NCBI RefSeq assembly: GCF_000025285.1
Contig: NC_013741.1
Location: 806,001-870,000, forward strand
DNA: 64,000 nt
Reading direction: 5' to 3'
Source of the DNA: Archaeoglobus profundus DSM 5631
GTDB lineage: Archaea > Halobacteriota > Archaeoglobi > Archaeoglobales > Archaeoglobaceae
Part shown: positions 33,566-55,978 of the stretch, piece after piece
Layout: each line of letters starts with the position of its first letter
Numbering within the stretch: position 1 is the stretch's first letter
Notes under the pieces: generated by a model
Seen by the model: only the letters and a program-made list of their open reading frames with translations
Databases searched by the model: none
What the model was told of the DNA's origin: nothing
Program-made: the position numbers and the translations under genes

Positions 33566-33623
33566 CTCCTCAGACCGTCGTGAAGTCATCACAATTCAGA
33601 CTATCGGGGAGTCATCATCGGTT
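33566..33623 (-). ncRNA. C/D box sRNA (2'-O-methylation guide)
   Basis: On the minus strand, 5' to 3': C box ATGATGA (33618-33612), 12-nt guide CTCCCCGATAGT, D' box CTGA (33599-33596), 3-nt spacer, C' box GTGATGA (33592-33586), 12-nt guide CTTCACGACGGT, D box CTGA (33573-33570). All four boxes are perfect and spaced as in archaeal sRNAs. A reverse TATA-like CTTTTAAGC (33643-33651) is about 25 bp upstream. By the N+5 rule the D guide would direct methylation of the U in ACCGU-CGTGAAG, which resembles the conserved CGUCGUGAG segment of 23S rRNA (from memory). Confidence 0.85.
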
Positions 33624-35441: not shown

Positions 35442-35461
35442 CTCAGATAGCGTAACAATCA

Positions 35462-35932
35462 TCACTTCTCAGGGGCGGGAGTATTCATCATCGCCTCTTC
35501 AACGATCTGCTTCACAACCTTTATAGCTTTTGGTATTGCATTCTCAACGGGCTTCGAGAGACCTATGCCAAACTCGATAACTTCAGGTTCAACACCCACG
35601 AACTTAATTTTCGGTAATTTGTAATTAAATCCGCAAAATCTCAATGCCTCTATAAATCCTATATCGTGAAGACTAACCGGATTCTTCGTCTTAAAATCGA
35701 CTTCGTCTAAATCGAAGACATAGAGATCACCGGGTTTCCCGCCACTCTTCACGACATCGACGATTATGCAGAGATCGTAACCCTCAATGTAGTTCAGAAT
35801 TTGAATACCCAAAGTTCCAAGCTCGTAGATCGTTGCAGGCAGATTCATCTTTCTGAGTTCCTCGACAACTCTCACTCCAAAACCATCGTCTCTCATCAGA
35901 ATGTTACCAATGCCTATTACTACTACCTTCAT
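35462..35932 (-). CDS. Hydrogenase maturation protease (peptidase M52)
   Basis: 156 residues of the HyaD/HycI/VhtD family that removes the C-terminal peptide of the [NiFe] large subunit after nickel insertion. GIGNILMRDDGFGVRVVEEL is the signature, with later ELGTLGIQIL and LHDIGF. It is the last gene of the hydrogenase cluster and probably acts on VhtA at 37461-39185. Its start overlaps the AKR stop by 4 nt. Confidence 0.92.
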   Translation of the reverse strand: MKVVVIGIGNILMRDDGFGVRVVEELRKMNLPATIYELGTLGIQILNYIEGYDLCIIVDVVKSGGKPGDLYVFDLDEVDFKTKNPVSLHDIGFIEALRFCGFNYKLPKIKFVGVEPEVIEFGIGLSKPVENAIPKAIKVVKQIVEEAMMNTPAPEK

Positions 35933-53511: not shown

Positions 53512-54543
53512 ATGTTCAAGTTCACAGAGAACGCTCATGAGATATCCAAAACAAGAGAGAATTACACCATCGACATAGCGAGACGTTTAACCGTTATAAC
53601 TGCGGATAGAATACATCTGAAGAGATTTCCGATTTCAAATCCCATTACAGCCTTTAATCCAGCTATGATAGTGGAAGGAGACGATGTGTACGTTTATGCA
53701 AGGGTGGTAGTAGGGTACTACATTTATGCAAGTGCCATTGCCGAGATAAGGATGTCCCTAGCTGATGTTTATCTGGATTCTACTTCGCATTATTCTGCAG
53801 ATTTAGTGCTCTATCCGAGTGGAAAGTACGATATATGGGGTACCGAAGATCCTAGAGTTGTTGTGATAGATGGAAAGCCGTTCATGACGTACTGTGGTAG
53901 AACCGTAGCCTATTTTGATCCCCACATAAGGGTTGAAAGAACTCTACCAGTTACAGCTGTGAAAGAAAAGGGTATGTGGAGGAAGGTTTGTGTTCACAGG
54001 TTCCCAGAACCTATAAGGAAGCATATCGTCAGCGACAAGGACGCATTCATATTAAAAACAAAGGACGGCTTAAAGATGTTCCACAGACCTCACACCGATG
54101 AGGAGAATTTCTACCTCGCGGTAAGTGATATAGATGGCATTTACGAAGGATATGAGGAGGCAACACTTCTTAATACAACAGTTGTCATGACAGAGGCTAG
54201 TTTCGAGGAAAAGATTGGATGGAGTACACCGCCAGTTGAAGTTGATGGAGAGTATCTATTTTTGGCACACGGCTTAGAGAGGGATTCAAAAGCGTACAAG
54301 ATATTTGCTTTAACGATGAATAGGGATTTGGAAATTACGGCAGTGACTCCACACTACATAATGGAACCCAAAGAGATTTACGAAATTTATGGAGATAGAC
54401 CGTTTGTAGTATTTCCTTGCGGAGCTTGCATCGTTGACGATAGCCTCTTAGTCTCCTACGGATGCGCGGATTTTGCAGTAGGAATATGTGAGTTCGACTT
54501 GAGCGAATTGATGTCAATTCTGGATAAGAACAGGATTAAGTAA
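53512..54543 (+). CDS. GH130-family glycosidase/phosphorylase (beta-mannoside phosphorylase type)
   Basis: 343 residues forming a five-bladed propeller. ITAFNPAMIVEGDDVYVYARV (about 44-64), GTEDPRVVVIDGKPFMTYCG (104-123) and a late FVVFPCGACIVDDSLLVSYGCAD are typical of GH130 (PF04041), enzymes that phosphorolyse beta-mannosides. Together with manC it suggests turnover of a mannose-containing glycan. The exact substrate is unknown. Confidence 0.88.
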   Translation: MFKFTENAHEISKTRENYTIDIARRLTVITADRIHLKRFPISNPITAFNPAMIVEGDDVYVYARVVVGYYIYASAIAEIRMSLADVYLDSTSHYSADLVLYPSGKYDIWGTEDPRVVVIDGKPFMTYCGRTVAYFDPHIRVERTLPVTAVKEKGMWRKVCVHRFPEPIRKHIVSDKDAFILKTKDGLKMFHRPHTDEENFYLAVSDIDGIYEGYEEATLLNTTVVMTEASFEEKIGWSTPPVEVDGEYLFLAHGLERDSKAYKIFALTMNRDLEITAVTPHYIMEPKEIYEIYGDRPFVVFPCGACIVDDSLLVSYGCADFAVGICEFDLSELMSILDKNRIK

Positions 54544-54544
54544 A

Positions 54545-54556
54545 AAATATTTAATC
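54545..54556 (+). promoter_or_regulatory. TATA box of the second C/D box sRNA
   Basis: AAATATTTAATC, centred about 25 bp before the expected sRNA 5' end (near 54573-54576). It begins just after the GH130 stop codon. Confidence 0.5.
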
Positions 54557-54572: not shown

Positions 54573-54629
54573 GTGGATGATGAATGTGGCCGTAACTGAG
54601 CTGTGATGAATAGTCCCATCCCTGATCAA
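54573..54629 (+). ncRNA. C/D box sRNA (2'-O-methylation guide)
   Basis: C box ATGATGA (54577-54583), 12-nt guide ATGTGGCCGTAA, D' box CTGA (54596-54599), 3-nt spacer GCT, C' box GTGATGA (54603-54609), 12-nt guide ATAGTCCCATCC, D box CTGA (54622-54625). All boxes are perfect and both guides are exactly 12 nt. By the N+5 rule the targets are the fifth base (G) of TTACGGCCACAT (D') and the fifth base (G) of GGATGGGACTAT (D). Located 30 nt after the GH130 stop; its 3' end reaches the tldD stop. It may be transcribed from its own TATA. Confidence 0.88.
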
Positions 54630-55903
54630 CTTCCTCCTACCAATGCTCTTATCAGTACGGGAGGAGAACCATCAGAAACCGGAACAAGCTGATCTTCTTT
54701 ACCGCAAAATCCTGGATCAAACTCCAAGTCCCTTCCTATTCTAATACCTTTCAAAATCTCGAGTGTATATCCGCTTAAAGAGACATCTCTTATCATTCCA
54801 GTCAGTTCTCCCCCTTCAATCAAGTAGCCATACTGTGCGTTGAACTGGAAGTAACCAGTTGCTGGATTAGTTTCGCCACCTCTAGAACCTACGAGGTATA
54901 CACCATTTCTTGCAATCTCCAAGAGCTCTTCAAATCTGTGATCTCCTTTATCCAGATAAGTGTTACTCATTCTCACAATAGGAAACTTCAATCCTTCAGC
55001 CCTCGCATTACCTGCTCGAGAGTTTAAATTCAATGCAGTCTCTCTCGAATGGAGAAAGTCTTTCAAAATGCCGTTCTCAACAATTGTCCTCTTCTCAGCT
55101 TTGACACCCTCATCGTCAAACGGATAGAACCCAAATTCTCTAATAGTTGGATCGTCGTAAATGTTTACACAGTCATCCGCAACCTTTTGACCGAGTTTAT
55201 TTGCCAAAACGCTTGCACCTTGCAGAACGTGATCGCCTTCAACTGCATGCCCAAAAGCTTCGTGAACGAATACACCTGCTAAACTCGAATCAGCCACAAC
55301 ATTCATAGCTCCTGACGGTGGAGTCTTAGCATTTACGAGCTTCGTAACCACCTCGACTACTTCATTGGCCAAATTGTAAGCTCCCTTTAAGGCTTCAAAC
55401 CCTGCCGGTTTCATTACTCTCTTCGAGTAGAATTGAAGAGTTTTATCTTTTGCAACTGCCGAAATTATCAATCCTATCCTAGGAATCTCGTAAAACACTT
55501 CGTTGCCGTTCGAGTCGTAGTACCTTAACCTTCTAACATTCTCAAAATAGGCCACACTTGTGCTTACGATTTTATCGCTTTTTAAGTTCTTTTCAACATC
55601 CTTTAAGAATTCGACCTTCTCCTCAACGGAAATATCCCTAAAATCCTCCTTCGGCTTAAGCACGAATTTTCCCTTAGATGAAACATTCAGAACATCACTA
55701 TCACCCTTTCCAACTGCATTTTTCTCAGCTAGAGCTATACCCTCCCGATCGTCAACATCTCCAACGAAGTATCCCCAAAAGCCGTTCTTCAAAACTCTGA
55801 AAGCTTTTCCTCTCGACTCGTCAAACTTTACCTTCTCAACTTTCCCATTTTCAACAGATATCCTGAGACTGTAACTTTCTACAATTCTAACGTCGTAGAA
55901 CAT
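54626..55903 (-). CDS. tldD: TldD/PmbA-family metalloprotease
   Basis: About 425 residues. The zinc motif is HEAFGH (HExxxH) followed by AVEGD, near 217-227 of the longest form. TldD with TldE degrades unfolded or modified peptides. The longest frame begins GTG 55912, but reverse TATA TTTAAA (55925-55930) is 24.5 bp from ATG 55903, favouring a leaderless start there. No second TldE/PmbA gene is adjacent. Confidence 0.93.
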   Translation of the reverse strand: MFYDVRIVESYSLRISVENGKVEKVKFDESRGKAFRVLKNGFWGYFVGDVDDREGIALAEKNAVGKGDSDVLNVSSKGKFVLKPKEDFRDISVEEKVEFLKDVEKNLKSDKIVSTSVAYFENVRRLRYYDSNGNEVFYEIPRIGLIISAVAKDKTLQFYSKRVMKPAGFEALKGAYNLANEVVEVVTKLVNAKTPPSGAMNVVADSSLAGVFVHEAFGHAVEGDHVLQGASVLANKLGQKVADDCVNIYDDPTIREFGFYPFDDEGVKAEKRTIVENGILKDFLHSRETALNLNSRAGNARAEGLKFPIVRMSNTYLDKGDHRFEELLEIARNGVYLVGSRGGETNPATGYFQFNAQYGYLIEGGELTGMIRDVSLSGYTLEILKGIRIGRDLEFDPGFCGKEDQLVPVSDGSPPVLIRALVGGS

Positions 55904-55978
55904 GTTTCCCACTTAACTCCGAAGTTTAAACAATTGCGGTCAGAAGTTTTAAATACAGTTTTGGACTGTGTGGTAAAG

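Follow-up and report, generated by a model that had tools for sequence, protein, structure and literature searches.

Between two convergent genes of Archaeoglobus profundus DSM 5631, in the stretch of 64,000 nucleotides analysed here (the window), lies a short element which a first-pass annotation had read as a C/D box small RNA gene with its 3′ end against the neighboring tldD gene. Is this a true C/D box sRNA gene, which positions in rRNA or tRNA would it address, and does its contact with tldD have any meaning? We consider it very probably an archaeal double-guide C/D box sRNA, probably with its own TATA promoter, that would be bound by L7Ae, Nop5 and fibrillarin and would guide 2′-O-methylation of 16S rRNA at the equivalents of Escherichia coli G894 and of G230 or, more weakly, position 44. 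The features of the locus, in window coordinates, are these:

53512 to 54543, plus strand: upstream gene, GH130 family (PF04041, 297 bits)
54543 to 54555, plus strand: TATA-like AT run AAAAATATTTAAT, centered 22 to 28 nt upstream of the predicted RNA start
54573 to 54629, plus strand: C/D box sRNA, the predicted mature RNA, with ends placed from the boxes, from the Rfam C/D models aligning at 54573-54628, and from relatives
54574 to 54576, plus strand: 5′ arm of a short terminal stem, pairing with 54626-54628 (U-A, G-C, G.U), from the sequence and the snoPyro_CD alignment
54577 to 54583, plus strand: C box ATGATGA, unchanged in 7 of 7 genomes
54584 to 54595, plus strand: D′ guide ATGTGGCCGTAA, pairing with the organism's own 16S rRNA at 867-876
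54596 to 54599, plus strand: D′ box CTGA, invariant among relatives
54600 to 54602, plus strand: spacer GCT from D′ to C′, varying between genera in length and sequence
54603 to 54609, plus strand: C′ box GTGATGA, its TGATGA part invariant
54610 to 54621, plus strand: D guide ATAGTCCCATCC, pairing with own 16S 239-249, with 36-46 as second choice
54622 to 54625, plus strand: D box CTGA, invariant among relatives
54626 to 55912, minus strand: tldD/pmbA-type metallopeptidase gene, its stop codon abutting the D box

The sequence at 54577-54625 agrees with the original description of perfect C, D′, C′ and D boxes, two 12-nt guides and a 3-nt spacer; the C (RUGAUGA) and D (CUGA) boxes lie near the ends and the internal D′/C′ boxes are separated by a short spacer, as is the rule for archaeal C/D sRNAs, and no plus-strand ORF runs stop-free across the element. 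A strict double-box pattern matched three times in the window (54577 on the plus strand, 35443 and 33570 on the minus strand), making the earlier label of "second" sRNA inexact for a window with at least three such patterns, and matched in none of 100 first-order Markov sequences of equal length. Genome-wide, the C-D′-C′ pattern gave 29 matches, or 27 places once two overlapping pairs were merged, and the same pattern read backward as a control gave none. The best Rfam model was snoPyro_CD (RF00095), which aligned at full length (54574-54628) with the boxes in register but scored 38.7 bits against a gathering score of 45, so that the sRNA is not filed as a member of that family. Its fold was no more stable than those of shuffled sequences (z = –0.27); such weak folding is expected, because box C/D k-turns have been reported to remain unfolded in the absence of L7Ae (PMC5689011).

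The two other strict matches in the window, both on the minus strand, have predicted targets of their own. The sRNA at 33570-33618 looks like a conventional double guide with targets 26 nt apart, its D′ guide fitting 23S rRNA at own position 2703 (nine consecutive pairs or more) and its D guide at 2677 (ten); the D′ guide scores slightly higher at 16S position 440. The third C/D sRNA, at 35443-35491, reaches 48.8 bits with snoPyro_CD, above the Rfam gathering score, and has a D′ guide that fits 23S 1711 and recurs in the five genomes of genus g9 (below) having the sRNA studied here. Elsewhere in the genome, clusters of two and three C/D pattern matches, with both strands represented, each fit into a few hundred bases (G000:C1:1297230-1297332 and 310221-310551), and matches at G000:C1:162321-162353 and 1222493-1222525, both on the minus strand, lie a few bases downstream of tRNA genes, possibly forming tRNA-sRNA dicistrons.

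The genomes compared below belong to genus g1 (the window's own genome, G000, with G001 and G002) and to genus g9 (G010, G020, G130, G149 and G274). The exact pattern of C box, D′ guide (hereafter the h27 guide, for its target in 16S helix 27) and D box was found in 7 of the 392 genomes of the phylum, namely G000, G002 and the five of g9, and by this pattern the sRNA is missing from most Archaeoglobaceae; a D-guide pattern matched the same 7 genomes. With up to three mismatches allowed, some match to the h27 pattern appeared in 28 of the 55 family genomes, most of the extra matches having another guide (e.g. TCTGGCAGAA) and being left out of the count. Further D-guide matches, at 3 mismatches, resemble another sRNA, which in the own genome is that at window position 35443. 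The 7-genome alignment shows no change in boxes C, D′ and D or in the TGATGA part of C′ and few changes in the guides, whose cores are kept while the spacer and flanks vary; the terminal stem is absent from some relatives. G002 and G000 share the D′ guide unchanged, and their D guides differ only in the last base, amid diverged flanks and spacer. Boxes and guides have accordingly been kept in 7 genomes from two Archaeoglobaceae genera, as is expected of archaeal C/D sRNAs.

The h27 guide was also found between C/D boxes in 13 genome_contigs stretches, all archaeal by title and 7 of them outside Archaeoglobaceae, where we estimate a chance expectation of about one match (19.5 specified bases, both strands of 257 Gb); in each of the 13, the remaining pair of C/D boxes was recognized near the guide by eye. 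Such sRNAs of Bathyarchaeota, Thermoproteota, Geocrenenecus and Wolframiiraptor hold the G894 guide between C/D boxes as here, but their partner guides differ. In three genome_contigs stretches from other archaeal lineages that have the h27 guide (L185, L186 and L190), the partner guide, compared with the A. profundus 16S as stand-in, has a fit at own position 850, 20 nt away from G870.

The first-pass annotation had proposed two exact 12-nt targets, TTACGGCCACAT and GGATGGGACTAT, to be sought in rRNAs and tRNAs. Both were absent from the fetched rRNA loci (16S and 23S), and within the window the sRNA gene itself is their sole occurrence; what survived of the proposal is that near-perfect sites exist in 16S rRNA, tRNAs being poor targets. 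For the 44 tRNAs, which we rejected, the best sense-strand energies were –9.5 (D′) and –8.0 (D) kcal/mol; in a first scan 30 of these 44 loci had carried 1500-base flanks and both strands, and flank and antisense matches were removed before counting. The scan took in 16S, 23S and tRNAs; no 5S was found beside the rRNA operon. Target ranks rest on five of the seven genomes, leaving out G274 (16S not found) and G149 (16S partial), and for the guides of G020 and G130, whose own assemblies yielded no 23S, that of G010 was used. For every guide scanned, 23S sites were weaker than the best 16S site.

The 16S sequence paired by the D′ guide is GUACGGCCGCAA at own positions 867-876 (10 pairs, one G.U; –16.8 kcal/mol), the aim being own G870, which corresponds to E. 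coli G894 of helix 27 in an alignment with E. coli 16S. This was its best 16S or 23S site in all five genomes scanned, and the three g9 genomes scanned paired better there than the window's own genome (11 pairs, –20.1 kcal/mol), with a U.G pair become C-G and a terminal U.G added. When 1000 shuffled guides were scored for pairing energy in 16S and 23S, 8 reached the observed energy for G000 and 20 for G010.

Assignment of the D target is less certain. In G000 the best site is own 16S 239-249, aiming at G243 (E. coli G230; –18.0 kcal/mol), and the G230 site is best in G002 as well (–14.7); second in both genomes comes a helix 4 (h4) site at own 36-46, aiming at G40 (E. coli position 44; –14.2 in G000, and –11.6 in G002, where it is tied with another site). 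In the three g9 genomes scanned, own G40 is instead the best site (–18.0 to –18.9 kcal/mol; 11-12 pairs, one G.U). Shuffled D guides reached the observed energy in 3 of 1000 cases for G000 and 6 of 1000 for G010. We had taken own 243 as E. coli 243-244, contacting G894, and dropped this when the E. coli 16S alignment gave 230.

The strongest rival to our reading accepts the C/D sRNA as real but has its D guide act at the h4 site in all species, the fit at 230 being chance. It is a possibility to be taken seriously, though we do not favor it: the site tops the D-guide ranking in all three g9 genomes scanned and in g1 guide positions 4-11 still form a core of 8 Watson-Crick pairs with it, yet the g1 guides have a mismatch there at guide position 3, and position 230 outpairs it in both genomes by the energies given above. 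Because the two 16S sites, GGAUGGGGCUGC and GGCUGGGACUAA, resemble each other, the D guide may plausibly use both or switch between them.

With G.U counted, contiguous pairs number 10 at 16S 870 (D′) and 11 at 243 (D), and the guides, of the ~12 nt usual for archaeal C/D sRNAs, pair with rRNA, position 5 of the guide forming a Watson-Crick pair. A general criterion asks for 9 or more Watson-Crick pairs in a row with rRNA (PMC4644070). The longest such run is 7 at either best site (the one G.U of the D′ duplex in G000 leaves 7, and the D duplex at G243 has 7 pairs before its first G.U) and 8 at the alternative D site, and thus none of the g1 duplexes reaches nine. The same source reports that the rule was relaxed for some double guides and that one-third of 489 sRNAs had no significant rRNA target. 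This rule bears on confidence in the targets, not on the class of the RNA.

GH130 and tldD converge, with the sRNA in between on the plus strand, and the original observation that its 3′ end touches the end of tldD was correct: the tldD stop codon follows the D box immediately, and a mature RNA reaching 3-4 nt beyond that box would overlap the stop codon by 3-4 nt. The sRNA occupies this place in both G000 and G002, where the stop-to-stop gaps are 82 and 73; in G002 the tldD reading frame extends over the D box. In G001, of the same genus, GH130 and tldD share a contig and their stop codons abut (0 bases between); pattern search found no copy of the sRNA elsewhere in this assembly, though at only 72% completeness the genome may have one. 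The loss of boxes in close relatives that had been named beforehand as evidence against the RNA is therefore seen at the GH130/tldD place of G001, while the boxes are kept in all 7 genomes that have the sRNA. In G020, G010 and G149, the g9 genomes inspected, a phosphoglycerate kinase-like gene (pgk) lies near the sRNA (translations read by eye), and the tldD end of G010 has no sRNA adjoining it. Because it stands beside GH130 and tldD in G000 and G002 and near pgk in the g9 genomes inspected, and has no copy at the G001 place, the sRNA gene appears to have been gained, lost or moved between genomic places.

These arrangements also bear on the suggestion that the sRNA or its precursor serves as an antisense regulator by pairing with the 3′ end of tldD mRNA, which we consider very improbable. 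The abutting stop codon here and the deeper overlap in G002 would suit such a role, but the predicted mature RNA overlaps by only 3-4 nt here, its conserved part consists of boxes and guides, and the antisense arrangement itself is not conserved. Since the G001 stop codons abut without the sRNA and the g9 copies inspected adjoin pgk, the tldD overlap is probably incidental. In a published survey of C/D sRNA genes 25% overlap an ORF 3′ end, and reporter effects of 3′ overlaps were neutral or slightly negative (PMC7994747). Least credible of all is a chance array of boxes in the gap between convergent genes, or a decayed and unexpressed gene, which the sRNA-less G001 locus and the unremarkable fold might suggest but which is countered by the empty set of 100 random sequences, by the near-identity of both guides in G002 amid diverged flanks, and by the weak fold expected of unbound box C/D k-turns (PMC5689011).

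An AT-rich octamer stands about 22 to 28 bases upstream of the predicted 5′ end in all 7 genomes. An archaeal TATA box is expected at such a distance. The TATA-like run upstream of the sRNA is likely its own promoter; a bacterial promoter and terminator scan, whose models are not made for archaea, gave no match at the sRNA. Among six archaea, a TATA-like motif was reported for only about 20% of C/D sRNA genes (PMC7994747).

We observed directly the sequence, its conservation, the pairing and, in the same genome, a fibrillarin gene (PF01269, 242.5 bits). By analogy with the known family, the double-guide sRNA would be transcribed, probably from its own TATA promoter, and L7Ae, Nop5 and fibrillarin would bind its C/D and C′/D′ motifs. 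The predicted substrate is nascent 16S rRNA, in which the D′ guide would direct 2′-O-methylation to own G870, the helix 27 nucleotide equivalent to E. coli G894, and the D guide to own G243 (E. coli G230). A weaker alternative for the D guide, preferred in g9, is own G40 (E. coli position 44). Bridging of two distant 16S regions may in addition affect folding, chaperone roles having been proposed for sRNAs with distant targets (PMC4644070). With the archaeal 16S/23S C/D sRNAs described so far (PMC4644070; PMC7994747) the studied sRNA has in common its box order, two guides, N-plus-five aim and 16S-core target, and conserved predicted 16S sites are reported to be densest in the region of helices 3, 18 and 27 (PMC4644070). 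The long-range double guides Neq sR15 and sR17 (PMC4644070 Table 3) likewise have two guides to sequence-distant 16S sites; here, by contrast, closeness of the targets in the folded rRNA is only suggested by a UV crosslink between E. coli U244 and G894 (PMC2731775), U244 being 14 nt from the D target G230. The set of that survey covers seven species, none of them Archaeoglobus, and its main-text passages do not name this guide pair (PMC4644070); a text search of a cryo-EM paper (PMC11698992) found no mention of h27 or 894. No title or abstract start in the Archaeoglobus C/D sRNA literature describes this sRNA, and since that search reached titles and abstract starts, not supplements, we claim no priority for the gene.

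The sRNA thus appears to be real, functional-looking and ordinary in kind, a C/D sRNA with a predicted 16S-core target that the Rfam gathering threshold misses, and its main interest lies in relocation and a possible target switch. Tentatively, a promoter-plus-sRNA unit (73-82 bp between stops) may have moved, or been gained and lost, with its guide pair kept, the D guide shifting between 16S positions 44 and 230 via guide positions 3 and 7 while a constant D′ guide anchors the RNP at helix 27. Its relatives offer a small example of known trends, in which guide pairs reshuffle or drift and sRNA genes change place. If true, the scheme would give a tractable system in which to study target switching and the bridging of helix 27 to the 5′ domain of 16S.
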